The position numbers and the translations under genes are program-made. From the NCBI RefSeq assembly GCF_022095675.1, contig NZ_JAHYSG010000044.1, forward strand, positions 1-64,000: a DNA stretch of 64,000 nt. Direction: 5' to 3'. Of the stretch, positions 39,440 through 64,000 are shown piece by piece. The stretch comes from Dactylosporangium sp. AC04546. GTDB taxonomy: Bacteria; Actinomycetota; Actinomycetes; Mycobacteriales; Micromonosporaceae. The notes beneath the pieces are model-generated. The model saw only the letters and a list, made by a program, of their open reading frames with translations, ran no database searches and was not told the origin of the DNA. How positions within the stretch are numbered: the stretch's first letter is position 1; every line of letters starts with the position of its first letter.

Positions 39440-40780
39440 GTGGAGCGGATACGCGTCCGGTTCGAGGGGGACGGCGCCGGCACCGGCGAGCTCGCGTGGG
39501 GCCAGCAGCAGGTCTGGCAGGCGATGAAGGAGCTCGGCTCGTCGATGGCGATGGGCGGCGTCGTGCCGGTCCTGGACGGCCGGACGGAGCGGGACTTCGC
39601 CGAGGAGCTGCGATTCTTCATGAGCCGGTACGGCGGGATGCGCGCGCTGCTGCGCTTCGGCCCCGCCGGTTCCGGGGAGGTCACCCAGGAGGTGTTCGGC
39701 AGCGGCGAGGCCACGCTGGAGGTCCACGACGCCGCGCCGTCCGAGGACCCGGCCGCGGTCGCCGCCGACCTGCTGGCCGCCTGGCGGGCCCGCCTCTTCG
39801 ACTACGCCAACGAGTGGCCGATCCGGATGGCGGTGGTACGCGCCGCCGGCGCGGTGACGCACGTGGTCGTCCTCGTCTGCCACATCGCGACGGACGGCGC
39901 CGGCCTGGCGACGATGATCCGCGAGCTGGGCGAGCGCGACCCGGCGACCGGCCGGCCCGCCGCGCCCCACGCCGGGATGCAGCCGCTGGACCTGGCCGCC
40001 ACCCAGGCGTCGCGGGCGGCGCAGCGGCAGTCGGACAACGCGCTGCGGTACTGGGAGGGCCAGCTGCGCACCATGCCGCCCCGCCGCTTCACGTCCCACG
40101 CCTCCCGGGGTGAGCCGCGCTTCCGGCGGGTCGTCTGGCAGTCGCGCGCGCTGCACCTGGCCGCCGACCGCGTGGCCGCCGCCCTCGGCACCGACCCGGG
40201 CTCGGTCCTGCTGGCCGCCTTCGCGGTGGCGTTCGGCCGGGTGACGGGCGGCAGCCCGTTCGTGACCCAGGTGATCGTCGGCAACCGCTTCCGCCCGGGC
40301 CTGGCCGACCTGGTGAGCCCCCTGGCCCAGAACGGCCTGGTGGTGATCGACGTCGCGGGCGCCACCGCCGCCGAGGCGGTCGAGCGGGCCCGGCAGGCGT
40401 CGATGAGCGCCTCGAAGTACGCGTACTACGCCCCGGGCCCGCGCGCCGCGCTCATCGAGCGGGTGTCCCGCGAGCGCGGCGAGCCGATCGCGCTGGGCGT
40501 CCTGTGGAACGACCGCCGCGGCAACGTGCCCCGCGCGGCCGCTCCCGACGAGCTCCCGGAGGCGTCCCGGGTGATCGACGAGCAGGTGCTCCCGTTCTTC
40601 AACGAGGAGCTGATGCTCAACGTCGACGACGTCCCGGACACGACCCAGATCACCACGGAGATCGACACCTGGTCGCTGCCGATCGAGGACCTGCACGCCC
40701 TGCTGGGCGAGATGGAGACCTTCACCGTCGCGGCCGCCCGGGAGGTGGCCGGCACCGCCGCGACGGCACCGGCCGGCTGA
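39440..40780 (+). CDS. Stand-alone condensation-domain protein (copy A)
   Basis: 446 aa. NRPS condensation/acyltransferase fold with the active-site HHxxxDG seen as CHIATDG: the catalytic second His, Asp and Gly are kept, the first His is Cys. Its N-terminus (ERIRVRFEGDG.G.GELAWGQQQVW) aligns by eye with the condensation protein at 54.8-56.1 kb. GTG 39440 chosen from GGGAGG at 39426-39431; ATG 39395 gives a 15-residue extension. No repetitive peptide lies next to this copy. Likely makes an ester or amide in trans. Confidence 0.85.
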   Translation: MERIRVRFEGDGAGTGELAWGQQQVWQAMKELGSSMAMGGVVPVLDGRTERDFAEELRFFMSRYGGMRALLRFGPAGSGEVTQEVFGSGEATLEVHDAAPSEDPAAVAADLLAAWRARLFDYANEWPIRMAVVRAAGAVTHVVVLVCHIATDGAGLATMIRELGERDPATGRPAAPHAGMQPLDLAATQASRAAQRQSDNALRYWEGQLRTMPPRRFTSHASRGEPRFRRVVWQSRALHLAADRVAAALGTDPGSVLLAAFAVAFGRVTGGSPFVTQVIVGNRFRPGLADLVSPLAQNGLVVIDVAGATAAEAVERARQASMSASKYAYYAPGPRAALIERVSRERGEPIALGVLWNDRRGNVPRAAAPDELPEASRVIDEQVLPFFNEELMLNVDDVPDTTQITTEIDTWSLPIEDLHALLGEMETFTVAAAREVAGTAATAPAG

Positions 40781-47988: not shown

Positions 47989-48345
47989 GTGCAACTGCAG
48001 CTCCACCTCGAAGCATCCGACGGCCACGCCGCGCCGGACATCGACACACTCCTCTCGTTGCAGCAGTGGCTGGTCGGCGAGCCGGGGCTCGTCCAGTCCG
48101 AGATCGGGCTGACGAGCGAGGGGCGGCCGGGCGACCTCGGCGCCGCGGTGGAGATCATCAGCCTGGTGCTCGGGACCGGCCTGTCGGTCGGGCAGCTGGT
48201 GCTGGCGATCTCGAACTGGCGCCGTGCCCGCCCCAAGGCGCCGGCGGTCGTGCTCACCCGCACCGACCCCGACGGCGTCTCGGTGCGCATCGAGTCGTCC
48301 GACCCCGAGGCGGTCGCGGCCGCGGCCCGGGCGCTCGACGGCTGA
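47989..48345 (+). CDS. EACC1 (effector-associated constant component 1)
   Basis: 118 aa: MQLQLHLEASDG, a polar N-terminal part, one hydrophobic helix (AVEIISLVLGTGLSVGQLVLAISNWRRAR, residues about 52-80), and a beta-rich tail (VVLTRTDPDGVSVRIESSDPEAVAAAARAL). This is the pattern of EACC1, an invariant small component of actinobacterial three-part conflict systems together with a caspase or trypsin-like protease and an effector or NTPase. GTG start; no strong ribosome-binding site. Confidence 0.8.
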   Translation: MQLQLHLEASDGHAAPDIDTLLSLQQWLVGEPGLVQSEIGLTSEGRPGDLGAAVEIISLVLGTGLSVGQLVLAISNWRRARPKAPAVVLTRTDPDGVSVRIESSDPEAVAAAARALDG

Positions 48346-48355
48346 TGACGGATTC

Positions 48356-49633
48356 ATGGCGGAACTAGCCGATCCGCGCGCGTCGCGGGCCGTGCTGATC
48401 GGCAGCGCCCGCTACGGGGCGCTGCCCGAGGTGCCGGCCGTGACCCGCAACCTCGCCGGGCTGAGCGGGGTGCTCGCCGACGCCGACCTGTGGGGCCTGG
48501 CGCCCGAGCACTGCACGGTGCTCGCCGACCACGACGACCCGCGGTTGGTCAGCCGGGAGCTGCGCCGGGCGGCCGACGAGGCCCAGCCGGAGGGCATGCT
48601 CGTCGTGTACTACGCCGGGCACGGCCTGGTCGACCCGGTCGACGGCAGCCTGGTGCTCGCCCTGCGGGACACCGATCCGGCGGTACCGCACGAGGCCGGC
48701 CTGCCCTTCGAACACCTGCGGCGGGCGGTGGCCGGCAGCCGGGCCCGCCGGCGCCTGGTGATCCTCGACTGCTGCTACGCGGGCCGGGCCGCCGGGCACA
48801 TGGCCGCCGGCGAGTCCGGCACCCAGGTCGTCGCCGACCAGGCCGGCACCGACGAGACCTGCCTGCTGGTCTCCGCCCCGCGCAACCGCACCGCCCAGGC
48901 CCCGCCCGGCGAGCCCTACACGGCGTTCACCGGCGAGCTGCTGCGCGTGCTGCGCGGCGGGCTGCCGGACCGCTCGGCCCTGCTCGACGTGCGCACGGTG
49001 TGGCGGGAGGTGACGGCGCGGCTGCGCGAGCGCGGGTTCGAGCTGCCCGAGCTGCGGGCCGGCAACGCCGGCGACGAGCTGGTGCTGGTGCGCAACGCGG
49101 CCCGCCACCACCGGGACCTGGTCGGCCGGATCGTGGTGGCGACCGCGGCGGTCGACGACCGCGACCTGCGCCAGGCGGTGGTGCTCATCCTGCGCCACGA
49201 GCGGGCCCGGGGCGCGGTCGGCGTGCGGATCAACGCGCCGACCAGCGCACCGCTGCCGGCGGAGATCCCGAGCGGCTGGCGGCGGCTGCTCACTCCGCCA
49301 GCGGTGATCTTCGACGCCGGGCCGCTCAGCCGCGCCGAGGGGTTCATCGCGGTCGCCCGGCTGCGGCCCGACGTGGAGCCGCCGCTGCGGTACCGGATGG
49401 TCCGGGAACGGCTCGGGGTCGTCGAGCTGTCGGCCGAGCCGGAGCCGCTCACCCCCGTGATCGCCGGGCTGCGGCTGTACTCCGGCTACCTCGGCTGGGG
49501 TCCCGAGCAGCTCGAGGCCGACATCGACGGCGGGCTGCTGCTGCTCAGCGACGCCGACGTGCGGGAGGTGCTGTCCAGCCGGCCCCGGGAGCTGTGGACC
49601 ACCCTGCACGCACGCGCACGAGGGGACGCCTGA
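48356..49633 (+). CDS. Caspase-like protease fused to a YqgE/AlgH domain
   Basis: 425 aa. Residues ~1-240: caspase/metacaspase fold with catalytic His in YYAGHG (85-89) and Cys in ILDCCYAGR (near 137). Residues ~250-425: YqgE/AlgH (UPF0301) domain, seen from VGRIVVATAAVDDRDLRQAVVLILRHERARGAVGVRINAP, VIFDAGPL and LRLYSGYLGWGPEQLEADID. Free-standing YqgE is about 185 aa, so it appears complete. ATG at 48356, 10 bp after EACC1; stop shares one base with the SIR2 gene start. Confidence 0.85.
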   Translation: MAELADPRASRAVLIGSARYGALPEVPAVTRNLAGLSGVLADADLWGLAPEHCTVLADHDDPRLVSRELRRAADEAQPEGMLVVYYAGHGLVDPVDGSLVLALRDTDPAVPHEAGLPFEHLRRAVAGSRARRRLVILDCCYAGRAAGHMAAGESGTQVVADQAGTDETCLLVSAPRNRTAQAPPGEPYTAFTGELLRVLRGGLPDRSALLDVRTVWREVTARLRERGFELPELRAGNAGDELVLVRNAARHHRDLVGRIVVATAAVDDRDLRQAVVLILRHERARGAVGVRINAPTSAPLPAEIPSGWRRLLTPPAVIFDAGPLSRAEGFIAVARLRPDVEPPLRYRMVRERLGVVELSAEPEPLTPVIAGLRLYSGYLGWGPEQLEADIDGGLLLLSDADVREVLSSRPRELWTTLHARARGDA

Positions 49634-51669
49634 TGACGCTGCTCGACGAGATCGCCGGCGCGATCGGCCACGGTGCGCAGATCACCCTGATCCTGGGCGC
49701 CGGGCTGACCCAGCCGGCGGTGCCCGGGCTCACCGGGATCGTCGAGCTCGCCGACCGGTACGCGGCCGGGCTCGGCGACGACGGCGAGCTCACCCAGGCG
49801 CTGCACCAGGCCCGGCAGGAGCTGGGCCCGCAGGCCGCGCCGATCGAGGTGTACCTCGCGTACCGGCGGGTCTTCACCGCCCGCCGCTCCCCCGGCGAGT
49901 TCGACGTGGTCGCCCAGCAGGCGGTCCTGGCCGGCTACCGGGCGCCGGACCTGGCCACCACGCCGCTGGCCACGCACGGCATCTGGCAGCGGGTCGACCT
50001 GCGCCTCGGCGAGCGGGTCGAGAACAGCCTCGACTGGTGGGAGCTGCCGCCGGGCGTGCGGGCGGTGGGCCGGCTGCTGGCCTGGCGCCCCGACGAGTTC
50101 GGCAGCGGGGTCGTGCTCACCACCAACTTCGACCCGCTGGTCGAGGTCGCCGTCCGGCTCACCGGCCGCCAGGCGGTCAGCGTGCCGGTCGACGCGGCCG
50201 GCCGCCCCGACCGCCGTCCGGAGGGCGACGGGACGGTCCAGGTCTTCCATCTGCACGGGTTCTGGCGGCCGGTGAACGAGACCGACCGCTCGCCGATGCT
50301 GCACGACCCGGCACCGTCCGTCGAGTCGGCCGAGCCGTCCGAGGCGTCCCGCGCGATCGCCGAGCTGATCACCGGCGACCAGGTCGTCGTGGTCGGCTAC
50401 AGCGGCTGGGACGACGTCGTCACGGGCGCGCTGCGCGCGGTCCGGGCGGTCCGGCCGGTCCGGGTGCTGTGGGCGCTGCAGGAGGACGCTCCCCCGCCGG
50501 ACCTGGCCGCGCGCCTCGGCGACCTGGTCACGTTCTTCCCCGGCATCGACGCCGACGAGCTGTTCGCCCGCCTCGCCGACCGGCTCCAGGTGCCGGCGAC
50601 CGTCCCGCGCCCCGACCCGCGCCGCCGGGTGCGGCACCTCGACTGGGAGCGCGAGCTGTTCTCGCAGCCCGGCAACGTCGTCCCCGACGGCGTGCTGCCG
50701 CTGCTGCGCCAGCTCGAGCGGCGCTACGGCTGGGGCGTCGACTGGGCCGGCGACCCGCAGCCGCCGCGCCTGCTCTTCTGGCCGGTCCGGCTGCGGGGCC
50801 GCGCGTCGCTCATCAACGCCGTCCAGGCCCTCGGCGCCGCCGCGCTCAGCGAGCGGGGCGTGCGGGTCGTGGTCTGCCTCGACGACTTCGGTGTCACGGA
50901 CCGCGCCGAGCTCGGCGCCGCGTTCGCGGCCGACCTGCGCCGCTGGATGCGCCGCGTCGACCCGGCCGCCGGCCCGGCGGTCGTCTCGCTGCACGACTAC
51001 ATCGAGGACTCGCACCGCGAACCCAGCCTGCTCCGCCCGACCGACCCCTGGTCGGTGGCCCGGATCTTCTACGGCGAGCGCAACCCGTCGCTGTACAGCG
51101 TCCTGGCCGCGATCAAGGTCGTGCCGCACCTGGCCCTGCACGACCTGGAGCAGAACGCGGCAGCCATCGTGCAGACGCTGCTGAGCAAGGACGCGAACCG
51201 CCTGCTGACCCCGCTGACGACGTGGGCGTACCTCCACCACCTTCTGGAGACGGAGCCGGCGGCCGAGGTGATGGCGTACGCCGGCAGCGACGAGCGACTG
51301 CTGTGGGAGCAGTTCCGGGAGCACTTCGGGCTGGGCGGCACATTGCTGTACAACCCGTACATCCGGCACCTCACCAACGAGTCCCGGATGGTGCGCTGGT
51401 CGACGCCGGCGGAGCTGCGCGAGTACCTCGCCTCGACCCGGGAGCTGCCCGGCTGGGGCGAGGAGGGCGGATACGTGCACTGGCTGGTCCAGAACGCGTT
51501 CCTGCTGCCGCGCTACCTCACCCGCTCGCCGTTCCCGGAGCTCGGCGGCTACCGCCTGGACTCGTGGGTGGCCTTCGCGGCGGCCCTGGACAAGGGCGCC
51601 CCGGTGCTGGACCTGCTGGCCGCGGACGTCTCGGCCTTCTACCTGCCGCCCACGCCACCGGCACCGTGA
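49633..51669 (+). CDS. SIR2-domain effector with uncharacterised C-terminal half
   Basis: 678 aa. SIR2-like NAD-binding fold: ITLILGAGLT (16-25), VLTTNFDPLVE (~160-170), catalytic His in VFHLHGFW (~205), VVVVGYSGWDD (~254). In defence systems such domains deplete NAD. Residues ~330-678 are separate: LLFWPVRLRGRASLINAVQALGAAALSERGVRVVVCLDDFGVTD looks to me like a HUP/class I tRNA-synthetase-type nucleotide-binding start, followed by a helical part with SLLSKDANRLLT-like elements. That last call is tentative. Confidence 0.8.
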   Translation: MTLLDEIAGAIGHGAQITLILGAGLTQPAVPGLTGIVELADRYAAGLGDDGELTQALHQARQELGPQAAPIEVYLAYRRVFTARRSPGEFDVVAQQAVLAGYRAPDLATTPLATHGIWQRVDLRLGERVENSLDWWELPPGVRAVGRLLAWRPDEFGSGVVLTTNFDPLVEVAVRLTGRQAVSVPVDAAGRPDRRPEGDGTVQVFHLHGFWRPVNETDRSPMLHDPAPSVESAEPSEASRAIAELITGDQVVVVGYSGWDDVVTGALRAVRAVRPVRVLWALQEDAPPPDLAARLGDLVTFFPGIDADELFARLADRLQVPATVPRPDPRRRVRHLDWERELFSQPGNVVPDGVLPLLRQLERRYGWGVDWAGDPQPPRLLFWPVRLRGRASLINAVQALGAAALSERGVRVVVCLDDFGVTDRAELGAAFAADLRRWMRRVDPAAGPAVVSLHDYIEDSHREPSLLRPTDPWSVARIFYGERNPSLYSVLAAIKVVPHLALHDLEQNAAAIVQTLLSKDANRLLTPLTTWAYLHHLLETEPAAEVMAYAGSDERLLWEQFREHFGLGGTLLYNPYIRHLTNESRMVRWSTPAELREYLASTRELPGWGEEGGYVHWLVQNAFLLPRYLTRSPFPELGGYRLDSWVAFAAALDKGAPVLDLLAADVSAFYLPPTPPAP

Positions 51670-53377: not shown

Positions 53378-54775
53378 GTGCGCCTCGACCTCTCCGGACT
53401 CGCCTCCTTCCGCGGTTCGCTGATCACCCCCTACGACCCCGGTTACGAGGGCGCCCGGGTGCTCTTCAACACCCGCGTGCGCACCCGGCCGGCGCTGCTG
53501 GCCCAGTGCGCGGACGCGGACGACGTGGCGGCCACCATCCGCTTCGCCCGCGAGCACGAGCTGCCGCTGTCGGTGCGCGGCGGCGGGCACCACGCGAGCG
53601 GACTGTCCCTTGTGGAGAACGGGGTGGTCGTCGACGTCGGCGGGATGCGCTCGATCGACTTCGACCCGGCCGCGGGCACGGTCACCGTCGGCCCCGGCGT
53701 GGGCTGGCGGGACATCGACCGGGTGACGTATGTCGAGCACTCCTTCACCGGCCCCGACGGCCTGGAGTACGGGCTGGCCGGCCCGGGCGGCGAGTGCCCG
53801 ACGGTGAGCAACGCCGGCTACAGCCTGGGCGGCGGCTACGGCCCGCTCGGGCGCACCTACGGCCTCGGCTGCGACCACCTGGTCGAGGTGTCCGTGGTGG
53901 ACGCCGACGGCCGGCTGCTGCGCGCCTCGGAGACCGAGCACCCCGACCTGTTCTGGGCGCTGCGCGGCGCCGGCGGGGCCGGGCTCGGCGTCGTGACCTC
54001 GCTGACGTACCGGCTCAACCCGCTGCCGAAGACCGTCGTGGGCGGGATCGCCGCCTGGCCGCTGGACCGCGCGCTCGACGTCTTCCGCGCCTACCGCGAC
54101 CTCTACCAGGACCGCGCGGACGACCGGCTCGCGCTGTGCCTGCTGCTCACCACCGAGCCGTACCCGGAGGGCGAGCCGGTGGTCGCGGTCTACGGCATGT
54201 ACGTCGGGCCGCCGAAGGAGGCGGAGGAGGCACTCGCCCCGATCCAAGGGCTCGGCGAGCCGATGTTCACGTCGTTCGGCGAGGTGTCGTACTTCGACCT
54301 CATGCAGGGCATGGGCGAGGAGATCGTCTACGGCCTCCAGTCGAAGTGGCTCGGCGGGTACTTCGCGCCCGACGGCTTCGACGAGCCGGCGTTCGCGAAG
54401 CTGGTCGACCACTTCCGCCGCAGCCCGTCGGGCTTCTCGATGGTGCGCTTCGACCTGCTGGCGGGCGGGGCGATCGCCCGGGTGCCGGCCGACGCGACGG
54501 CGTTCGCGCACCGCGACAGCCTGCACTACGTCTCGATCATCGCGCAGTGGCAGGGCGACGAGGAGACCGACCTCAACGTCAGCTGGGTCGACGACTTCGC
54601 CGAGGACCTGCGTCCCCACCTGACCGGCGAGGTCTACCAGAACTACGCCGACCGCGACCTGACCGGCTGGGAGACCGCGTACTACGGCGCGAACTACCCG
54701 CGCCTCCAGCAGGTGAAGGCGGCGTACGACCCGCAGGACGTCTTCCACACCCCGCAGTCGATCCGCCTACCGTAG
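53378..54775 (+). CDS. FAD-linked oxidase, berberine-bridge type
   Basis: 465 aa. FAD-binding PCMH domain with RGGGHHASG (His for covalent FAD) and GGECPTVSNAGYSLGGGYGPLGRTYG (Cys for the second link), C-terminal BBE motif (YYGANYPRLQQVKAAYDPQDVFH). Such bicovalent oxidases tailor natural products or oxidise sugars. No signal peptide seen. GTG start. Overlaps the convergent condensation gene by 9 bp; may belong to the biosynthetic region. Confidence 0.9.
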   Translation: MRLDLSGLASFRGSLITPYDPGYEGARVLFNTRVRTRPALLAQCADADDVAATIRFAREHELPLSVRGGGHHASGLSLVENGVVVDVGGMRSIDFDPAAGTVTVGPGVGWRDIDRVTYVEHSFTGPDGLEYGLAGPGGECPTVSNAGYSLGGGYGPLGRTYGLGCDHLVEVSVVDADGRLLRASETEHPDLFWALRGAGGAGLGVVTSLTYRLNPLPKTVVGGIAAWPLDRALDVFRAYRDLYQDRADDRLALCLLLTTEPYPEGEPVVAVYGMYVGPPKEAEEALAPIQGLGEPMFTSFGEVSYFDLMQGMGEEIVYGLQSKWLGGYFAPDGFDEPAFAKLVDHFRRSPSGFSMVRFDLLAGGAIARVPADATAFAHRDSLHYVSIIAQWQGDEETDLNVSWVDDFAEDLRPHLTGEVYQNYADRDLTGWETAYYGANYPRLQQVKAAYDPQDVFHTPQSIRLP

Positions 54776-56137
54776 GGCCTCGCCGACGACGGCCGCCTCC
54801 CCACGGTCCCTGGTCGTGTCGGGAAAGGCCGCGGAGACGACGATCTCCTCCATCGCGCGCAGGCAGCCGGCCATGTCGTCGGGTGAGAGGCGGTGGGTGT
54901 CGGCGCGGATGGTGAGGTCGATCGTGTCCGGCACCGGGTTCACGAGCAGGAAGCAGGTCGTGTCGGGGGTGTCGGAGCGCCGGCCCCAGCGCAGCCGGCC
55001 GCGGTCGAGCGCGCGGGTGACGTCGCCGGCCGTCACCGTCATGCCGTCCGGGAACGTCGCGAACGACCGGCGGCGGTCGCTGAAGTACGAGCTGACGTCG
55101 ATCGCCGCGCCGCGCTCGGTGCCGACCCGCTCGATCATCGCCCACAGCTCGCGGGGGTCGTAGTACGCGTGCAGGCCGGCGGACAGCTGGCTCTGGAACG
55201 CGGTGGCGACGACCTCGTCGAACGTCTGCCCGCCGACGTCGATGACGCACAGCGCGCTCTGCGCGACGGGGGCGACGGTCTCGCGGAAGCCGGGCCGGAA
55301 GCGGTTGCTCACCAGCGTCCGCAGCACGGTGCGCGGATCGCCCGAGATCCGGGCGAGCGCGACCGCGTACGCGGCGAGCAGCACCGTTCCACTGTGGACC
55401 TTCGTGCGGGCGGCCACCTCGTGCAGGGCGAGGTACGTCGCCGGCGAGTCGTAGCTGACGTCCCACCACCGCGGCTCGGCGGGCGCGGCCACCGGCGGGA
55501 AGCGCTCCGGCGGGATGGCGCGCAGGTGCTGCTCCCAGTGCCGCAGCGAGGCCGCCTGCTGCCGCCGGGCGGTCGCCGCCCGCTGCCGGCGCGCCTGCTC
55601 GAACGGCTGGACGCCCGGCACCTCGTCGGGGGGATCGGTCAGGTCGGCGGTCAGCGCCTCGATGCCGTAGCCGTCGAGGACCAGGTGCGTGTAGAGGGCG
55701 ACGAACCAGGACGCCACCCCGTCCCGGCAGATCACCGCCCAGCGCACCGACCAGTCCTCGGCGGGGTCGAAAGGGGCGGTCTCCAGGCGCTCGCGGACCG
55801 CCTCGGCGACGGTTTCCGGGTCGCGGTCGCCGGCCTCGACGACCTCCAGGAAGACCTCACCCTCGTCCGTGAGGAACTGGCGCGGCTCCCCGTCGGCGTC
55901 GAGGGCGAAGCGGGTCCGCAGCGACTGGTGCCGGCTCATCACGACGCCGAGCAGCGCGGCGAGCTCGTCCACGGTCTGCCCGTCGCGCAGCGGCATGGTG
56001 CCGCCGGCCCAGTCGGCCTCGCCGTTGATGCGCATGGATCCCCAGGCGGCCCGCTGGCCCCAGGTCAGTTCCTCGACGCCCACGCCCTCGCCCGCGAACC
56101 GGACCGGTATGCGCTGCGCCGTTGCAGTTTCCAGCAT
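54767..56137 (-). CDS. Stand-alone condensation-domain protein (copy B, with NAALR peptide)
   Basis: 456 aa. NRPS condensation/acyltransferase fold; active-site motif THLVLDG retains the catalytic His and Asp-Gly, first His replaced by Thr. Middle motif LVSNRFRPGFRETVAPVAQSAL matches VGNRFRPGLADLVSPLAQNGL of copy A, so they are paralogs. There is no adenylation or carrier domain, so donor and acceptor come in trans. It lies 94 bp downstream of the NAALR peptide gene, separated by a hairpin at 56183-56216. ATG at 56137. Confidence 0.87.
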   Translation of the reverse strand: MLETATAQRIPVRFAGEGVGVEELTWGQRAAWGSMRINGEADWAGGTMPLRDGQTVDELAALLGVVMSRHQSLRTRFALDADGEPRQFLTDEGEVFLEVVEAGDRDPETVAEAVRERLETAPFDPAEDWSVRWAVICRDGVASWFVALYTHLVLDGYGIEALTADLTDPPDEVPGVQPFEQARRQRAATARRQQAASLRHWEQHLRAIPPERFPPVAAPAEPRWWDVSYDSPATYLALHEVAARTKVHSGTVLLAAYAVALARISGDPRTVLRTLVSNRFRPGFRETVAPVAQSALCVIDVGGQTFDEVVATAFQSQLSAGLHAYYDPRELWAMIERVGTERGAAIDVSSYFSDRRRSFATFPDGMTVTAGDVTRALDRGRLRWGRRSDTPDTTCFLLVNPVPDTIDLTIRADTHRLSPDDMAGCLRAMEEIVVSAAFPDTTRDRGEAAVVGEALR

Positions 56138-56182: not shown

Positions 56183-56216
56183 GGCGGCCGGCGGAGGTGT
56201 CCCCCGGCCGGCCGCC
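56183..56216 (-). terminator. Hairpin between NAALR peptide and condensation gene B
   Basis: GGCGGCCGG (56183-56191) pairs with CCGGCCGCC (56208-56216), 16-base loop, no U-tract. Likely an attenuator or mRNA-stability stem that allows much more peptide than enzyme. Confidence 0.5.
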
Positions 56217-56231
56217 GTTCGGTGATGCGGC

Positions 56232-56282
56232 TCAGAGCCGGGCGTTGCGCAAAGCGGCGTTCCGCAGAGCAGCGTTCTTCAT
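56232..56282 (-). CDS. Repetitive micropeptide MKNAALRNAALRNARL
   Basis: 16 aa, ATG to TGA. GGGAGG six bases upstream is a strong ribosome-binding site. The peptide is MK followed by NAALR, NAALR, NARL. The repeats differ at synonymous positions (Ala GCT/GCC, Leu CTG/TTG, Arg CGG/CGC), so the peptide, not the DNA, is conserved. It shares NAALR with the peptide encoded divergently at 56734. First gene of the operon with condensation protein B. NAALR also resembles one turn of pentapeptide-repeat proteins, an alternative view. Confidence 0.68.
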   Translation of the reverse strand: MKNAALRNAALRNARL

Positions 56283-56733
56283 GTCGCACCTCCCTCGCGT
56301 CGGGTCACCGGCAGGGTCCAGGAAAGGGTGGATCGACCGTTGTCATGGCGTTGAATCGTTTGGAGACTGACGGCCGTGGTGTCCTCCACCCGTCACGCGG
56401 CGACCTACCCGATCCGGCGGGTGCAGTCGCGGCGTTCGGACTCCGCGGCGAAGCCTATCCACAGGAACCGCTCCGCCGAAAGGTCTTCACATTGATCACT
56501 TCAAATCAGTAGATTCTCCGGGCATTCTGGCGACGGTTTGCCCGATTTCTCGCGAACGCACGGAAACGCATTGAAAGCTGTCGTCGAGTTAGCTCAGCGG
56601 TTGACAGCCCGAACGGTGCGGGTGATGCTTTTGGCGGCCATTGATCGAAGTCGTTTGCCAATGGCCTGGTGCCGCCTGCGGTGCGCCATTCATAACGCAC
56701 CGCGGATGGATTGGTTGATATGAGGAGGTGAAC
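56283..56733. promoter_or_regulatory. Divergent promoter region between the two micropeptides
   Basis: 451 bp, noticeably less GC-rich than surrounding genes, especially 56480-56730. TTGACA at 56601-56606 is a perfect -35 for the plus side; the -10 (near 56624, GATGCT) is weak. The minus-side promoter is not evident. No other gene seen. Confidence 0.45.
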
Positions 56734-56847
56734 ATGTCGAACGCTGCTCTGCGCGTGGTCTCCGGCCGCGTCGTCTCCGGCCGCGTGGTGTCCGGGCGCG
56801 TGGTGTCCGGGCGGGTCGTCTCGGGCCGTCGCGTCGTCTCGGGCTGA
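56734..56847 (+). CDS. Repetitive micropeptide with six RVVSG units
   Basis: 37 aa: MSNAAL, five RVVSG units, one extra R, then a sixth RVVSG and TGA. AGGAGG five bases upstream of the ATG is an ideal ribosome-binding site. Units vary only at silent positions (Val GTG/GTC, Ser TCC/TCG, Gly GGC/GGG, Arg CGC/CGG/CGT), strong evidence of selection on the peptide. No Cys, acidic or aromatic residues, so it is no ordinary lanthipeptide or lasso precursor. Begins with the same NAALR as the divergent peptide. Followed by two strong hairpins and condensation protein C. Confidence 0.75.
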   Translation: MSNAALRVVSGRVVSGRVVSGRVVSGRVVSGRRVVSG

Positions 56848-56955
56848 ACCTGGTAGTCACCGCGGCCGATGCCGGCCGCACGCTGTAGCACCGCGGCCAC
56901 GTTCCGGCCGCATCTTCCGCGCTGTGATCTCCCTCGGCTCGCAGCGCGGGTCATC

Positions 56956-56993
56956 CCCGCACCCGGACGCCTCCCCGTGCGTCCGGGTGCGGG
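56956..56993 (+). terminator. 15-bp perfect stem after RVVSG peptide gene
   Basis: CCCGCACCCGGACGC (56956-56970), 8-base loop, GCGTCCGGGTGCGGG (56979-56993). Perfect stem, no U-tract; expected to stop or slow transcription between peptide and enzyme genes. Confidence 0.7.
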
Positions 56994-56995
56994 AA

Positions 56996-57035
56996 CGCGG
57001 GCGGCCGGCCGGGCGACAACCGCCGGCCGCCCGCG
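56996..57035 (+). terminator. Second hairpin, 13-bp perfect stem
   Basis: CGCGGGCGGCCGG (56996-57008) pairs with CCGGCCGCCCGCG (57023-57035). The inner nine pairs are identical to the stem after the NAALR peptide on the other strand. The condensation gene's GGAGG begins 23 bp later. Confidence 0.65.
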
Positions 57036-57067
57036 ATCTGTCCTGCCCGCGATCCGTGGAGGCTGCC

Positions 57068-58309
57068 GTGCACGAGACGTATCCGGCGACCGTCGGCCAG
57101 CTGTCGGTCTGGCGCGACATCGAGAAGATGCCGCCGGAGCGGCGCTGGGAGGCGAACCTGGTGTTCGTCTGGGACCTGCCCGCCGGGGCGTGGACCGAGG
57201 ACGAGATCTGGGACGCCCTGGGGCGGCTGGGGATGCGGCACGGGTCGCTGCGCACGACGTACGAGCTCGACGCCGGCGGCCTGCCCCGCCAGCACCTCGC
57301 CGCCGGCACCGCCGCCGAGGTGCGCGACGCCGTCCGCCAGGGCACGGCCGCGATCGCCGACCTCGCGGCGATGGAGACCGCCGAACTGCAGCGGGCCATC
57401 GACGCCACCGCCGAGCTGCCGTGGCGGACCTGGATCCTGACCGAGGCGGGCCTGCCGCGGCAGGTGCTCGTCGTGGTCAACCACATGGCCGCCGACGGCG
57501 CGGCGATGCTGCTCATGCGGGACGACTTCGAGCGGCTGCTGCGGGGCGAGACCCTGCCGCCCGCGCGCGGCCCCCTGGAGATGGCCCTCGACCAGCAGGG
57601 CGCGGGTTCGGGGCGGCTGCGGACGGCCGAGCGGTACTGGCGGCGCACGCTCGACGCCGCGCCGAAGCTGGCCCCGGGCACGCCGCAGGGCCCGCCGCTC
57701 GGCGCGACCCTGCACACCGGCATCCCGATGCCGCTCACCCACGAGGGCGCCGCGAAGCACGAGGTCAGCACGGCCAGCCTGATCCTCGCGGCCTACTACA
57801 CGGCCCTGCGCGAGGTCACCGGCGAGCAGGCCCAGCTGCTGTACCCCATGTCGTCGAACCGCTACGACGACGAGCACGCCGCGGTCGTCACCAGCCTCAA
57901 CCAGTGGACGCCGCTGCTGCTGGACCTGGAGGAGCCGTTCGCCGACCTGCTCACGAAGGTGCACTGGAAGAGCTTCAACGCCCTCAAGAACGGCGTCTGC
58001 TCCCCGGACGCGATCCTGACGATCCGCTCGGAGCACGAGCAGGCAGGCGGCGACCCCGGGTACTACTACAACCCGATCCTCGCCCCGCCCGGCTTCCCCT
58101 CCGAGGACACCGTGGTGCCCCCGTCGCTGGAGCACTACGAGCCGGCCCGCACGACCGGCCCGGGCTTCTACGTCATCGCCCGCGGCCTGACCAGCCTGGA
58201 CCTCATCGTGCGCGTCCACCGCCCGGGCTGGACCGCACAGTCGCTGGACCGGGTCCTGGCCCGGATGCAGTCGACGCTGGCCGAGTCGTTCGGCGGCCAC
58301 CCCCTGTGA
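57068..58309 (+). CDS. Stand-alone condensation-domain protein (copy C, with RVVSG peptide)
   Basis: 413 aa. HETYPATVGQLSVWRDIEKM opens a condensation/acyltransferase fold; active-site motif NHMAADG keeps the catalytic His and Asp-Gly (first His is Asn). LLYPMSSNRYDDEHAAVVTSLNQWTPL corresponds to the SNRFRPG region of copies A and B, but overall it is the most divergent of the three. GTG start at 57068 fixed by GGAGG (57058-57062). Partner of the RVVSG peptide by position. Confidence 0.87.
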   Translation: MHETYPATVGQLSVWRDIEKMPPERRWEANLVFVWDLPAGAWTEDEIWDALGRLGMRHGSLRTTYELDAGGLPRQHLAAGTAAEVRDAVRQGTAAIADLAAMETAELQRAIDATAELPWRTWILTEAGLPRQVLVVVNHMAADGAAMLLMRDDFERLLRGETLPPARGPLEMALDQQGAGSGRLRTAERYWRRTLDAAPKLAPGTPQGPPLGATLHTGIPMPLTHEGAAKHEVSTASLILAAYYTALREVTGEQAQLLYPMSSNRYDDEHAAVVTSLNQWTPLLLDLEEPFADLLTKVHWKSFNALKNGVCSPDAILTIRSEHEQAGGDPGYYYNPILAPPGFPSEDTVVPPSLEHYEPARTTGPGFYVIARGLTSLDLIVRVHRPGWTAQSLDRVLARMQSTLAESFGGHPL

Positions 58310-58324
58310 CGCACCGATCTCCCC

Positions 58325-58398
58325 CGCGATCTTGGAGTTGTGGTCCCAGAAATGTCCGATAAAGGCGACAAGTCGGGGACCACAACTCCAAGATCGCG
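58325..58398. repeat. Perfect 23-bp inverted repeat, bidirectional terminator candidate
   Basis: Arms 58325-58347 and 58376-58398 are exact complements (outer end CGCGATCTTGGAG), with a 28-base loop holding a smaller TGTC/GACA pair. It lies between convergent genes, so it may end both transcripts. I recall similar gatcttggagttgtggt elements dispersed in Micromonosporaceae genomes, but could not check. Confidence 0.8.
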
Positions 58399-58420: not shown

Positions 58421-59380
58421 TCAGGACTCGCGCAGTGAGCGGCCTGTCTTTGTCAGGAAGACGTCGTCCAGTGTCGGGCGGTGCAGTTCGATCGTCGACA
58501 GCGTGATTCCCGCGCCCTCCAGGGTGCGCATGATCTGGGGGATCGCGGTGTCGCCCGCGTCGACGGTGAGCCACAGCTCGCCGTCCTCGCGCTGCTCCAG
58601 GCCGCGGGCGAAGGGCTGGTCGCGCAGCGTCTCGGCGGCCTTGTCGGCCAGCTCCGCCGGCACGCCCACCGTCACCACGTCGCCCGAGATCTCCCGCTTC
58701 AGCGCGTCGGGCGTGCCCTCCGCGACGATCTCGCCGTGGTCGATGATCGCGATGCGGTCGCAGAGCGCGTCGGCCTCGTCGAGGTAGTGCGTGGTGATGA
58801 AGACGGTCATACCCTCGGCGCGCAGGCGGCGGATCTCGTCCCACATGTGCGCGCGGCTCTGCGGGTCGAGGCCGGTCGTCGGCTCGTCCAGGAACAGCAC
58901 CTGCGGCTTGTGGATGACGCCGAGCGCGATGTCGACCCGCCGGCGCTGGCCGCCGGAGTACGTCTTGCACTTGCGGTCGGCGTACTCGGTCAGGTCGAAC
59001 GCGGCGAGGGCCTCCTCGGCCCGCTGGGTCGCCTCCGCCTTGCCCAGGCCGTACATGCGGGCCTGGAGGATCAGCTCCTCGCGGGCGGTGACGTCGTCGG
59101 AGGTGCCGCCGCCCTGCGCGACGAAGCCGATGCTGCGCCGGACGGCGGCCTGGTCGTTGCGCAGGTCGTTGCCGGCGATGGTGGCCTCGCCGTCGTCGGG
59201 CGGGATGAGCGTCGCCAGCATGCGCAGGGTCGTGGTCTTGCCGGCGCCGTTCGGGCCGAGGAAGCCGAAGATCTCGCCCTCGGCGACGTCGAGGTCGATG
59301 CCCTTGACCGCGTCGACGCTGACCGTCTGCCGCTTGTGCCGCGTCTTGAAGGACTTCTGCAGCCCCTTGGTCTTGATCAT
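58421..59380 (-). CDS. ABC exporter ATPase, DrrA type
   Basis: 319 aa. Walker A GPNGAGKTTT, Q-loop, signature YSGGQRRRVDIALG, Walker B VLFLDEPTTGLDP, H-loop THYLDEAD; C-terminal DrrA extension (TLDDVFLTKTGRSL). Daunorubicin-resistance-type ATPases drive export of natural products. Follows the permease by 25 bp. Confidence 0.93.
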   Translation of the reverse strand: MIKTKGLQKSFKTRHKRQTVSVDAVKGIDLDVAEGEIFGFLGPNGAGKTTTLRMLATLIPPDDGEATIAGNDLRNDQAAVRRSIGFVAQGGGTSDDVTAREELILQARMYGLGKAEATQRAEEALAAFDLTEYADRKCKTYSGGQRRRVDIALGVIHKPQVLFLDEPTTGLDPQSRAHMWDEIRRLRAEGMTVFITTHYLDEADALCDRIAIIDHGEIVAEGTPDALKREISGDVVTVGVPAELADKAAETLRDQPFARGLEQREDGELWLTVDAGDTAIPQIMRTLEGAGITLSTIELHRPTLDDVFLTKTGRSLRES

Positions 59381-59405
59381 GAGAACTCCTGGTGACGACG
59401 ACGGG

Positions 59406-60170
59406 CTAGCGGACCGAGCGGGCGAACAGGCGGGCCGACCAGGCGACCGCCACCACCACGAGCCCGCCGCAGATGACGAGGCTCTTCCAGACGCTGGCGT
59501 CGCCCGGGTTGCCGGCGTAGAGCGCGCGCATGCCGGTGACGGCCCAGTTGAACGGGTTCCAGTCGGCGATCGTGCGCAGCCAGAGCGGGGCCAGGGCGAG
59601 CGGCAGCAGGGTGCCGGACAGCAGCATGAGCGGCTGGGCGACGTTGTTGATGACCTGCCCGAGGACGTTCGGGTTGTTCACCTTGATCGCGATGCCGTAC
59701 GAGATCGACGCGGCGGCGAGGCTGATCAGGGCGAGGATCGCGTAGCCGAGCAGGATGTTGCCGATGTTGGTGATCAGGCCGAACGGCAGCGACAGCACGG
59801 TGATGAGGATCGACTGCACGATCACCGTGACGACGTCGCGCAGCGAGCGGCCCAGCAGCAGCGCGACCCGGCTCACCGTGGTCACCCGGGACCGCTCGAT
59901 GACGCCGTTGGCGAGGTCGCCGAGCAGGCCGAAGCCGACGTACAGGCCGCCGCCGATGGCCAGCGCGACCAGCATGCCGGGGACGTACACCCGGTAGGCG
60001 TCGATCATCGAGTCGGCGCCGAGCGAGGCGAGCGCCGGCTTGAGCAGCGGCGCGAAGAGGATCAGGTACACGACCGGCTGCGCGATGCCCAGGAACACCC
60101 ACAGCGGCGAGCGGACCATCAGCAGCATGTGTCGTTGGAAGATCAGCCAGGTGTCGCGCAGTACTTTCAC
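59406..60170 (-). CDS. ABC-2 exporter permease, DrrB type
   Basis: 254 aa, six TM segments, ABC-2 motif region (GTLLPLALAPLWLRTIADWNPFNWAVTGMRALY). GTG 60170 in a GTGA overlap with the glycosyltransferase stop preferred over TTG 60182. With the ATPase it likely exports the product of the neighbouring biosynthetic genes. Confidence 0.92.
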   Translation of the reverse strand: MKVLRDTWLIFQRHMLLMVRSPLWVFLGIAQPVVYLILFAPLLKPALASLGADSMIDAYRVYVPGMLVALAIGGGLYVGFGLLGDLANGVIERSRVTTVSRVALLLGRSLRDVVTVIVQSILITVLSLPFGLITNIGNILLGYAILALISLAAASISYGIAIKVNNPNVLGQVINNVAQPLMLLSGTLLPLALAPLWLRTIADWNPFNWAVTGMRALYAGNPGDASVWKSLVICGGLVVVAVAWSARLFARSVR

Positions 60171-61351
60171 GGTGTCTCGCAATCGTCCTTGTCGAGGAGG
60201 GGGTGGGCCAGGCGCTCGAGGTGGCCGGCGGCCGCCTCCGCTCCGCCGCCGGCGGTGAGCTCGGCGCCCAGCTCGCGGGCCGCGTCCGCGTAGGACGGCG
60301 TGGCGAGCAGGTCGAGCAGGGCGGCGCGGAGCCGTTCGGGTGGGGTGTGGTCGAAGGAGACCCGCAGCCCGGCGCCAGCGGTCGCGACGGCCGCGGCGTT
60401 CAGCGCCTGGTCGCCCTTGATCGGCGCGACGAGCAGCGGCACGCCGTGGACCAGCGCCTCCGAGACGGTGTTCAGCCCGCCGTGGGAGACGACGGCGTCG
60501 AGGTGCGGCAGCAGGTCGAGCACCGGCACCCGGCGGCGGACGAGGACGTGCGCGGGTGCCTCGGTGATCGTGCCCTCGGCCGCGACGACCACCGCCTGGA
60601 GCCGGTCGCCGAGCGGCTCCAGGGCGGCGAGCATCCGCTGGTAGAAGTCCTTGGCGAGGTCCAGCCCGAGGGTGCCGACGGTGACCAGGACGTGGCGGCG
60701 GCCCGGATCGAACCAGTCGAGCGGGAAGTCCGGGTCGGGGGCGCGGGCGGCGAGCGCCGGCCCCACGAGCACGGCGTTGCCGGGCCGGTCGGACGGGTCG
60801 CCGGCGAGTGCGCCCGCGCTGAAGGCGATCACACCGTACGGCGAGAAGCGCAGGTCGTGCGGCGGTTCACCGGGCCGGCCGGCGGCCGTCCACGCGGCGG
60901 CCATCCGGCCCTGGATCCACGCCTCGACGCCCGGTAGCGAGCGCCGGAACGGCCGCGTGAGCTCCATCGTCGTCGGCGCGACGCTCGCCCAGCGCAGCCC
61001 GCGGGCGGTGGCGACGATCGCGCCGGCGATCGCGTGCTGGTCGACGACCACCAGGTCCGGCACGAACGCCTCGGCGGCGGCCTCGATGCCTTTGCGGGTG
61101 CTCTTGGCGTGCGGCAGGATGTAGCCGTCCCAGCGGGACCGGGTGGCGTCGAGGCCGCGCTCGGCGATGCCGCGGTGGGCCCGCAGCGGGATGCCGTGGA
61201 TCTGCGCGTCGTCGCCGACGAGCGGCCGCAGGAACGACTCGGAGCCGGCCCACAGCACGTCGTGGCCGCGGCCGGTGAGCGCGTGCGCGACCGCCGCCAT
61301 CGGGTTGACGTGCCCGGTGAGCGGCAGCGAGACGAACAGGAACCTGGTCAT
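60167..61351 (-). CDS. MGT-type (GT1) glycosyltransferase
   Basis: 394 aa GT-B fold. N-terminal PLTGHVNPMAAVAHALTGRGHDVLWAGSE and C-terminal donor motif AVVSHGGLNTVSEALVHGVPLLVAP, as in macrolide/glycolipid glycosyltransferases. Transfers a nucleotide-activated sugar to a small molecule or lipid. ATGA overlap with the carrier protein gene. Confidence 0.93.
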   Translation of the reverse strand: MTRFLFVSLPLTGHVNPMAAVAHALTGRGHDVLWAGSESFLRPLVGDDAQIHGIPLRAHRGIAERGLDATRSRWDGYILPHAKSTRKGIEAAAEAFVPDLVVVDQHAIAGAIVATARGLRWASVAPTTMELTRPFRRSLPGVEAWIQGRMAAAWTAAGRPGEPPHDLRFSPYGVIAFSAGALAGDPSDRPGNAVLVGPALAARAPDPDFPLDWFDPGRRHVLVTVGTLGLDLAKDFYQRMLAALEPLGDRLQAVVVAAEGTITEAPAHVLVRRRVPVLDLLPHLDAVVSHGGLNTVSEALVHGVPLLVAPIKGDQALNAAAVATAGAGLRVSFDHTPPERLRAALLDLLATPSYADAARELGAELTAGGGAEAAAGHLERLAHPLLDKDDCETP

Positions 61352-61617
61352 GTCCGCGCCGTGACGTAGTCGGCGACGTCGGCCACCGTGAGGGTGAGCA
61401 GGGCGTCGAAGTCCAGGCCGGCGACGTGGCCGGCCAGGTCCACCGCGGGGCCGAAGCGGGCGGCGAGGGCCGCGCTCAGCGCGACCAGCTCGACGCTGTC
61501 CAGGAACAGGTCGCCGTCGAGGCGGGTGGCCGGGCCCAGGCCGGCCTGCCACTCCGCGTCCTCGCCGGTGACCTCGCGCAGCAGCTCGGCAACCGCCCGC
61601 TGCGCCGCGGTCTCCAT
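61348..61617 (-). CDS. Acyl/peptidyl carrier protein
   Basis: 89 aa. LDGDLFLDSVELVALSAALAARFG contains the phosphopantetheine-bearing Ser41 in the DSVEL motif. Free-standing carrier, two bp after the methyltransferase gene. Likely donor carrier for one or more of the stand-alone condensation proteins, charged by the AMP-ligase at 63.2 kb (inference). Confidence 0.9.
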   Translation of the reverse strand: METAAQRAVAELLREVTGEDAEWQAGLGPATRLDGDLFLDSVELVALSAALAARFGPAVDLAGHVAGLDFDALLTLTVADVADYVTART

Positions 61618-61619
61618 GA

Positions 61620-62549
61620 TCAGTCTCCGGTCGCTTCGAAGGTCGCCTCGAGGGCCGGCTTGGTGGCGCGCACGGCGCCGTAGGTCATCGCGCCGGTCTC
61701 GAAGCCCTTGAGCATGAGCGGGCCGGCGTAGAAGAACCCGAGGACGTCGACGCCCCGGTCGCGGGCCAGGTCGCGCATCATCGAGCGGCCGTTGTCGAGC
61801 TCGCGGACCTGCGCGAACGTCGGCTCCCAGGAGTTGGCGACGTTGGCGCTCCAGTCGGCGGACGCGACGGCGGCGAAGCCGGCCGCGGCGGCCAGCCGCT
61901 CGTGCTCCTCCAGCGACGAGAAGCTCGGCATCACCTGGTGGCGCAGGATCTGGTCGACGACCCGGTGCTCCTCGGCGGTCAGCTCGCCGTCGCGGACCGA
62001 CCAGGTCGCGATCGCGAGCACCCCGCCCGGGCGCAGCAGCCGCATCGCCTCGGCGAAGAAGGCCACGCGGTCGGCGATGTGCATGAGGCTCTCGACCGCC
62101 CACAGCGCGTCGAACGACGCGTCGGGGTAGCCGTTGTCGAAGAAGTCGCGCTGGTGGAAGCGGGCCCGGCCGGCCAGCCCGGCGGCGGCCGCCTTCTCGT
62201 TGGCCCGGGCGGCCTGGGCGGCGCTGAGCGTGACCCCCTCGACCGAGCAGCCGACGGGGCCGGCGAGGTACAGCGCGGGGCCGCCGATGCCGCAGCCGAC
62301 GTCGAGCACGTGCCCGCCGTGCGGTATCCCGGCGAACGTCACCAGCTCGCGGACCAGCCGGTCGGTGGCGACGTGGCGGTCCTCGTCGCTGCCGGGGCGC
62401 TCGCCGGCGTCCCAGAAGCCGTGGTGGACGTGCTCGCCCCAGAGGTCCTCGTAGAGGTCGAGCGTGGTGTCGTAGTACCGCTCGACGGCCGCGTTCAGGC
62501 CCGGCCCGGCTGGCGCCGACGGGTATGCAGAAGTGCTATTCGCTTTCAC
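61620..62549 (-). CDS. SAM-dependent methyltransferase (small-molecule type)
   Basis: 309 aa. Motif I HVLDVGCGIGGPALYLA, then GVTLSAAQAARANEKA, MHIADRVAFFAEAMRLLRPGGVLAIATWS; related to tocopherol/mycolic-type and sugar- or polyketide-tailoring methyltransferases. GTG 62549 (VKANSTSAYP) chosen; weak GGAG upstream, and an upstream in-frame start at 62648 adds 33 unlikely residues. First gene of the minus biosynthetic operon. Confidence 0.87.
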   Translation of the reverse strand: MKANSTSAYPSAPAGPGLNAAVERYYDTTLDLYEDLWGEHVHHGFWDAGERPGSDEDRHVATDRLVRELVTFAGIPHGGHVLDVGCGIGGPALYLAGPVGCSVEGVTLSAAQAARANEKAAAAGLAGRARFHQRDFFDNGYPDASFDALWAVESLMHIADRVAFFAEAMRLLRPGGVLAIATWSVRDGELTAEEHRVVDQILRHQVMPSFSSLEEHERLAAAAGFAAVASADWSANVANSWEPTFAQVRELDNGRSMMRDLARDRGVDVLGFFYAGPLMLKGFETGAMTYGAVRATKPALEATFEATGD

Positions 62550-63158: not shown

Positions 63159-64000
63159 GTGACCGACGAGGCGCTGGACCCCCGGTGGGTCGACGAGGTC
63201 CTGCTGGCCGGCCCGGACGAGCAGGTAGCCCTGGTCCTCGCGGCCCCGGTCACCCGGGCCGAGCTGCGCCGGCTGGTCTCGGCGAAGCAGGCGGTGCTGT
63301 CCAGCGCCGGGCTCGGCCCCGGCGGCTCGGTGGCGCTGTGCCTCGCGCCGTCGCTCGCCTTCGTGGCCAACCTGCTCGCCTGCTGGCGGCTCGGCGCGCG
63401 GGCGGCACTGCTCGACCACCGGCTCACCCCGTTCGAGGTCGACAACGCCCTGCAGCGCCTCGCGCCGCAGGTGGTCGTCACCGCCGGGCACGCCTCCGGC
63501 GGGCCGCTGCGCGGGTTCCAGGAGATCGAGGAGCGGGTCGCCACCTACCCCGGCCGCCCGGCCGACACCCCGCACGCGCTGATCCAGCTCAGCTCCGGCT
63601 CCACCGGGCCGTCAAAGGTCATCGCCCGCACCGCCGCGAACCTCGTGGAGGAGCTGGAGCGGTACACGGCGATCGGTGCCGGCGTGCCCCGGGCCGGCGA
63701 GCGCATCGTCTCGCTCGCGTCCATGGTGCACGTGCTCGGGCTCGTCGGCGGTCTGCTGTACGGACTCCACATCGGCGCCCAGGTGGTGATCCCGGCGCGG
63801 ATGACCGCCGACGGCATCCTGGCCACCGTCGCCGCGGGGCCGGAGCCGACCACCCTGCTCGGCGTCCCCTTCCACATCGAGCTGCTCTCGTCGGTGCAGG
63901 CCCCGCCGCCCCTGCCCCAGCTGACCGGCATGACGACCGGCGGCGAGCTGGTGCGCCCCGAGGTGTACGCCGGCTTCGTCGACCGCTACGGCGTGCGCCT
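63159..64000 (+). CDS. AMP-forming acyl ligase/adenylation enzyme (partial)
   Basis: At least 280 residues, cut by the window end. Adenylate-forming motif A3 SSGSTGPSK near residue 144, LACWRLGARAALLDHRLTPFEVDNAL earlier and TGMTTGGELVRPEVY near the end. It would activate an acid and load it onto the carrier protein at 61.3 kb. AAAGGGG lies upstream of the GTG start. Confidence 0.88.
   Translation, partial: MTDEALDPRWVDEVLLAGPDEQVALVLAAPVTRAELRRLVSAKQAVLSSAGLGPGGSVALCLAPSLAFVANLLACWRLGARAALLDHRLTPFEVDNALQRLAPQVVVTAGHASGGPLRGFQEIEERVATYPGRPADTPHALIQLSSGSTGPSKVIARTAANLVEELERYTAIGAGVPRAGERIVSLASMVHVLGLVGGLLYGLHIGAQVVIPARMTADGILATVAAGPEPTTLLGVPFHIELLSSVQAPPPLPQLTGMTTGGELVRPEVYAGFVDRYGVR

Follow-up and report, generated by a model that had tools for sequence, protein, structure and literature searches.

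Repeat peptides encoded beside stand-alone condensation enzymes in Dactylosporangium: candidate enzyme partners in a polyketide-like gene cluster

Two peptide genes, two condensation enzymes and their surroundings

In the genome of Dactylosporangium sp. AC04546 two tiny genes, pep1 and pep2, lie in divergent orientation, each preceding a gene for a stand-alone condensation-domain (C) protein, CB and CC, respectively, raising the question whether the encoded repeat peptides are real and what they contribute to the enzymes next to them. We analysed the locus within a stretch of 64,000 nucleotides, here called the window, and in related genomes. As reported in a preliminary description of this DNA, both frames are present on opposite strands, each with a strong ribosome-binding site (RBS) and with hairpin-forming DNA between it and its C gene (Table 1). 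The peptides had been called perfectly repetitive, which holds for the pep2 of the window, being composed of MSNAALR followed by VVSGR repeats, but pep1 is only loosely so. A 14-mer, AACGCTGCTCTGCG, is common to pep1 (56263-56282) and pep2 (56734-56753); the identical GCT GCT codons within it are a hint of a possible duplication or conversion between the two genes.

The assignment of CB and CC as stand-alone condensation-domain proteins held up, both showing Pfam matches to Condensation (PF00668, cut-off 30.6 bits) above the cut-off and to no other Pfam family, which together with the HxxxDG motif places them in the NRPS condensation-domain family; the start codon of CC was chosen by our script. 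The HxxxDG core of CC is intact, its His, Asp and Gly being invariant in an alignment of six Dactylosporangium proteins. The nearest PDB sequence to CB is Txo1 (6oyf, E 3.2e-8) and the best PDB profile match for CC is 4znm, a 'C-domain type II peptide synthetase' (E 3.8e-12), which we take to be the free-standing SgcC5.

Table 1. Coordinates of the features discussed, given as window positions or, in the last row, as positions and loci of the C. rubra family
Feature	Position	Strand	Description
Hypothetical partner enzyme CB	54767..56137	-	stand-alone condensation-domain protein, 456 aa, THLVLDG motif; PF00668 81.4 bits
Hairpin after pep1	56183..56216	-	GC hairpin, 10-bp perfect stem, 15 nt after pep1 stop; reached by 1/100 shuffles
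pep1	56232..56282	-	MKNAALRNAALRNARL, 16 aa; RBS GGGAGGTG
Candidate pep1 promoter	56449..56483	-	CTTTCG-N17/18-TAGGCT, found by eye, without statistics; -10 differs in C. koreensis
pep2 promoter-like element	56601..56629	+	conserved, TTGACA-N17-GATGCT; starts 133 nt before pep2 ATG
pep2	56734..56847	+	MSNAALRVVSGRVVSGRVVSGRVVSGRVVSGRRVVSG, 37 aa; RBS GAGGAGGTG
Hairpin between pep2 and CC	56956..56993	+	15-bp perfect stem; reached by 0/100 shuffles; z -7.4
Second hairpin between pep2 and CC	56997..57034	+	candidate long GC hairpin; part of the z -7.4 fold
Hypothetical partner enzyme CC	57068..58309	+	stand-alone condensation-domain protein, about 413 aa, NHMAADG motif; PF00668 36.1 bits
Neighbour genes	58421..62549	-	ABC transporter pair, glycosyltransferase, ACP, methyltransferase; order conserved in genus
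AMP-ligase	63159..64000	+	cut by window end
Repeat-array/LanKC/XRE/C-protein loci	C. rubra L103:4024-9123; L116-L120, L126-L129

The ACP, AMP-ligase, glycosyltransferase, methyltransferase and ABC transporter said to lie near the pair were indeed found at 58.4-64 kb, the transporter being DrrA-like with a membrane partner. Along the same contig the cluster runs on to about 80 kb, encoding past the window ACPs, ketosynthase-like proteins (matching the cispentacin AmcF/AmcG models below their cut-offs), a 4HPPD-family dioxygenase (above the cut-off), PhyH, DUF3050, E1-like alpha/beta subunits, an AMP-ligase, a third C protein (by similarity), KASIII-like and PPTase-like proteins, an aminotransferase and an FMN dehydrogenase. 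Most of the genes past the window have counterparts in Catelliglobosispora koreensis and Catenulispora rubra. Judged by these genes, it appears to be a polyketide-like, antibiotic-like biosynthetic cluster of hybrid type, and a search of open-licence papers found none on it. Neither a protease nor an enzyme of a known RiPP class was seen among the subset of cluster proteins scanned, which counts against the peptides being enzyme substrates.

Two further features of the window were observed. At 47989-51669, an EACC1-domain protein, a caspase and AlgH-like protein and a SIR2-like protein are encoded one after another, and three of five Dactylosporangium relatives have counterparts in the corresponding position; the series looks like a conflict or defence module. 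At 58328-58395 lies an inverted repeat with GATCTTGGAGTTGTGGTCC, a dispersed palindromic element whose 19-mer is found in 63 copies genome-wide, 32 on one strand and 31 on the other, often paired about 50 bp apart.

Conservation of the pairing and selection on the repeats

The short frames might have lacked conservation beside homologous condensation genes, a possibility raised at the outset that was not borne out. CC is present in six of seven Dactylosporangium genomes; C. koreensis and C. rubra were added by a scan with two short peptide patterns, which may miss other relatives. A pep2 counterpart lies 69-665 nt upstream of CC in seven of the eight genomes found with CC, and a pep1 counterpart precedes the CB-position gene in six of seven genomes (Dactylosporangium and Catelliglobosispora), C. 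rubra being the exception in both cases. The pairing thus holds for 13 of the 15 genes occupying the CB or CC position in clusters of this type and spans two genera. C. rubra has genes at both positions and neither pep1 nor pep2, counting against a substrate role, and the D. vinaceum locus is without CB and also without pep1, which we count in favour of a partnership. Relocation of the D. vinaceum CB was considered and rejected, since its nearest relative elsewhere (53%, locus L052) sits beside D. aurantiacum and D. siamense paralogs in a clade other than that of CB; no repeat peptide precedes it.

The five Dactylosporangium CB proteins form one clade in the tree (support 0.989). Those encoded at the CB position in C. 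koreensis and C. rubra do not belong to this clade and lie beside other C proteins, so that the pep1-CB pairing is conserved by place and not clearly by descent. The CB and CC frames of C. koreensis are intact, and gene order is kept in five Dactylosporangium relatives with local insertions and losses. As a local variation, D. aurantiacum (L034:5331-7922) and D. siamense (L035:5392-8010) have two tandem CB-like genes behind one pep1.

A pattern joining RBS and pep1 gave matches in 5 of 354 Micromonosporaceae genomes, and these are precisely the Dactylosporangium genomes that have CB at the locus; the pattern was drawn from known copies and misses the pep1 of C. koreensis, which has one extra residue. 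The C family itself is large, with a CB relative at E <= 1e-60 in 27 of 200 family genomes. At 26 further loci of the family whose upstream DNA was read, a minority of the C-family places listed, no repeat peptide was present, the 27th locus being the C. koreensis CB with its pep1; a general association of the C family with repeat peptides is therefore not seen at these loci. A search with the pep2 of D. sucinum gave no protein-database relatives sharing enough words. Overall, the distribution data support pep1-CB and pep2-CC as putative dedicated partners.

Comparison of the counterparts reveals that the pep2 repeat unit switches as a block between species (VVSG, VVSS, AISG, AVSS). VVSGR arrays are found in the window, D. 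sucinum and D. fulvum (the latter with some AVSG), five copies of VVSSR in D. aurantiacum, AISGR arrays in D. siamense, MPSIISRKIISRVISN in D. vinaceum and AVSSR/GIKSR arrays in C. koreensis, the copy number ranging from about 3 to 9; pep1 measures 11-26 aa. Differences among the pep2 repeat copies fall mainly on third codon positions, amounting to 34 synonymous and 4 non-synonymous changes summed over six species which are not independent, D. vinaceum being left out of the count, with about one third synonymous expected. The minimum counts are 5:0 for the window, 7:0 for D. sucinum, 8:1 for D. fulvum, 3:0 for D. aurantiacum, 6:0 for D. siamense and 5:3 for C. koreensis, the last not being significant by itself (P 0.07). 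This pattern fits a translated repeat peptide held uniform by selection, suggesting that pep2, like a RiPP precursor, is ribosomally encoded and under selection.

Chance or a non-coding DNA satellite could also give rise to repetitive frames. VVSGR-like low-complexity frames are common, a pep2 match at E <= 0.01 occurring in 132 of 200 family genomes, and a repeat frame stood behind some RBS-like motif in 5 of 16 background places fetched, one of these motifs being good. However, the best background place (L098) proved to lie antisense to a genuine repetitive gene. Four others examined closely lack a strong RBS and, where arrays were seen, consist of near-identical DNA units, whereas RBS, synteny and synonymous divergence are combined at pep1 and pep2. 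The rarity of the RBS and pep1 pattern and the synonymous repeat divergence strongly disfavour this explanation, which we regard as extremely improbable. Supported by their sequences, pep1 and pep2 look like genuine ribosomally made peptides.

Hairpins, promoters and control of the enzyme genes

The GC-rich hairpins reported after both peptide genes of the window were confirmed, and we followed them through the counterparts. A perfect stem of 9-15 bp begins 9-18 nt after the pep1 stop in all six, reached by at most 1 of 100 shuffles in five counterparts and by 8 of 100 in D. sucinum. Behind pep2 the picture is mixed. Four of seven (window, D. sucinum, D. aurantiacum, C. koreensis) show a clear, strong stem, that of D. 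vinaceum is weak, being matched by 12 of 100 shuffles, and D. fulvum and D. siamense have no perfect stem; a missing or weak stem in three of seven counts against the substrate role. For the gap taken as a whole, an unusual folding energy is seen in some counterparts only (z from -7.1 to +0.4). The promoter-like element of pep2 is recovered by pattern in six of seven and by eye in D. vinaceum as TTGACA-N17-AATGCT. We infer that both peptide genes are strongly expressed.

A short ORF and a hairpin ahead of an enzyme gene are features of trp/erm-type leader-peptide attenuation, and the order at pep1 and pep2, with the hairpin close behind the pep1 stop in every counterpart, suggests a reading in which translation of the peptides controls the downstream C gene. 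The enzymes had been described as attenuated, which the comparison bears out in part only. The stems are regular after pep1 and less so after pep2, a U-run follows the stem in just 1 of 11 checked, and in a simple complementarity test the pairing of ORF and hairpin exceeded that of shuffles in none of the 11, giving no alternative structure as in trp/erm-type systems. Rfam returned no credible match, the three hits all being far below the gathering score; this and the lack of alternative pairing speak against an attenuator RNA. The varying copy number of pep2 also speaks against attenuation, and selection acts on the amino acids, which are kept while codons vary, fitting a peptide better than codon-specific stalling. 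Regulation by the peptides is therefore improbable, and, judging by the stem, U-run and pairing results, the hairpins are more likely to mark an mRNA end or set an expression ratio than to act as an attenuator.

Possible roles of the peptides and comparison with known systems

We tentatively favour, with a probability of roughly 0.4, a model according to which the C enzyme acylates its partner peptide. An acyl group produced by the cluster and bound to a carrier would be passed by the enzyme to the N-terminus, Lys2 or a Ser of the peptide, and the product would be an acylated peptide or a compound built on a peptide carrier, i.e. the output of a RiPP-like, polyketide-hybrid pathway. The repeat unit would presumably be what the enzyme recognises, and the many equal copies may reflect a substrate or multivalent role. 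In favour of acylation we count the linkage at the CB/CC-position genes together with its absence at the 26 other loci, the synonymous divergence and block-wise change of the unit, the pep2 promoter-like element, the strong RBS, the succession of hairpin and enzyme, the intact HxxxDG core, the ACPs, AMP-ligases and ketosynthases of the cluster, the 4znm match and the lanthipeptide parallel described below.

Several properties of the peptides restrict this model. A Ser is present in nearly every pep2 unit, an Arg at the unit ends in most counterparts and a basic residue in nearly every unit. Three of six pep1 orthologs (window, D. sucinum, D. fulvum) are without Ser, so that modification of Ser in trans, or of any one side chain, cannot cover both peptides; acylation on Ser or Arg, as first proposed, would be one form of the present model. 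Two observations count against acylation, the pep1 of the window containing neither Ser nor Thr and the pep1 of D. fulvum, MKGAALRGARL, being a single unit of 11 aa. By inspection, there is no leader separable from a core, the pep2 of D. aurantiacum and C. koreensis consisting of repeats from residue 2. The loci are laid out like those of RiPPs, and of the proposed precursor-plus-enzyme layout the conserved peptide genes, the one C enzyme each and the hybrid-type cluster persist, but neither a leader nor, among the cluster proteins scanned, a RiPP enzyme was seen. For want of these two defining features, we do not class pep1 and pep2 as RiPPs.

A second co-occurrence of repeat arrays with stand-alone C proteins was found in the C. 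rubra family (14 genomes); in five of these, genes for an XRE regulator and a stand-alone C protein come after that of a close LanKC relative. A precursor before LanKC is visible in four of the five (three complete, one partial), the fifth lying at a contig edge; three genes upstream of the C protein, it carries an N-terminal extension with tandem arrays of NVREL/NVREP/NVRDV, then RVVSNKLLASADAN or VVSG/SPSLAVNS. NF038148, the model for SflA-family class IV lanthipeptides, matches the C-terminus in both precursors scanned (L126, L127) and in one Catenulispora-labelled database protein (P0001); it does not match the pep2 of the window or D. fulvum, and pep1 is too short for the scan. In C. rubra the precursor is without the lanthipeptide core and LanKC without most of its kinase (about residues 240-392 of the relative), and both arrays are retained, about 5 kb from CC. 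No protein-database relatives of the C. rubra repeat protein were found among 8000 candidates scored. Across the class, relatives of the C. rubra LanKC occur in 5 of 394 genomes; these loci are ordinary, with a full-length LanKC and, where a precursor can be seen, a short one free of repeats. Relatives of the C. rubra C protein occur in 2 of 374. In the genome studied here, a search for the C. rubra LanKC at E <= 1e-40, scoring 3 of 35 candidates, gave no match. Another stand-alone C protein of the window (39440-40780), with no repeat peptide upstream, is this genome's best match (43%) to the C. rubra C protein beside LanKC. By analogy, these loci may represent a parallel case to the pep1/pep2 pairing; a shared origin is just an idea because short low-complexity motifs can converge.

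This parallel also bears on a reading in which the repeats bind the C enzymes and perhaps carrier proteins, holding them together as a multivalent docking scaffold without being modified. The position of the lanthipeptide repeats, in front of the leader, is as compatible with docking as with a substrate role, and C. rubra keeps its arrays despite the loss of the core and most of the kinase. Selection for many equal units, their varying number and the widespread basic residue likewise agree with docking. Against it speaks that the unit varies much between Dactylosporangium species and that pep1 shrinks to 11 aa, and we consider it unlikely, ranking it behind acylation and ahead of regulation. 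The Arg at the unit ends and the ABC transporter would suit signal or decoy peptides that are cut at Arg to pentapeptides (VVSGR, NAALR) and act outside the enzyme pathway in signalling or self-protection. Such a role leaves the pairing with C enzymes unexplained and finds no protease among the scanned cluster proteins, making it slightly more improbable than regulation. Acylation of the peptides is thus preferred over docking, regulation and signalling.

Going beyond the single locus, it is conceivable, albeit rather doubtful, that these loci belong to a new class of ribosomal natural-product pathway, in which leaderless repeat peptides would serve as acceptors or carriers for dedicated C enzymes joining polyketide-like acyl groups, the C. 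rubra-related loci being a second, independent use. N-type (NAALR/NVREL) and VVS-type (VVSG/VVSN) repeats would then be similar across both uses. Should the C enzymes act on these peptides, the substrates of a familiar enzyme family would be extended to a new kind, and ribosomal biosynthesis would be joined to that on carrier proteins at a point that genome mining probably overlooks, peptides of 11-48 aa being easily left uncalled. As scaffolds or regulators, they would still provide a clean, testable case of tiny repetitive peptides linked to one enzyme family. The natural variants of pep1 and pep2 are suited to swap experiments.

In agreement with the first impression that no such system has been described, our search of open-licence papers found none; related systems share some features with it. 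The thiovarsolin precursor VarA of S. varsoviensis is, according to the main text of its report, a bacterial repeat peptide with a short Arg-ending core, APR, and without a specific protease in the cluster, all of which resembles pep1 and pep2, but VarA has a predicted leader and YcaO/TfuA enzymes, whereas pep1 and pep2 have no evident leader and neighbour a C domain, a term absent from that main text (PMC6511847). The repeat-extended SflA-family lanthipeptides share the ribosomal origin, the tandem arrays (NVREL..., RVVSNK.../VVSG) and the C protein three genes downstream, but their arrays extend a lanthipeptide precursor served by LanKC, and pep2 has no SflA match. SgcC5 and NRPS C domains have the fold family and the HxxxDG core in common with CB and CC, SgcC5 being the best PDB profile match of CC. 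SgcC5 joins two small-molecule halves and we know of no peptide gene paired with it, unlike CB and CC, each of which lies beside a peptide gene. In lipolanthines and other RiPP-polyketide hybrids a ribosomal peptide is joined to an acyl chain from carrier-protein enzymes, just as we propose here, but the known hybrids rely on lanthipeptide enzymes and a leader-core precursor.
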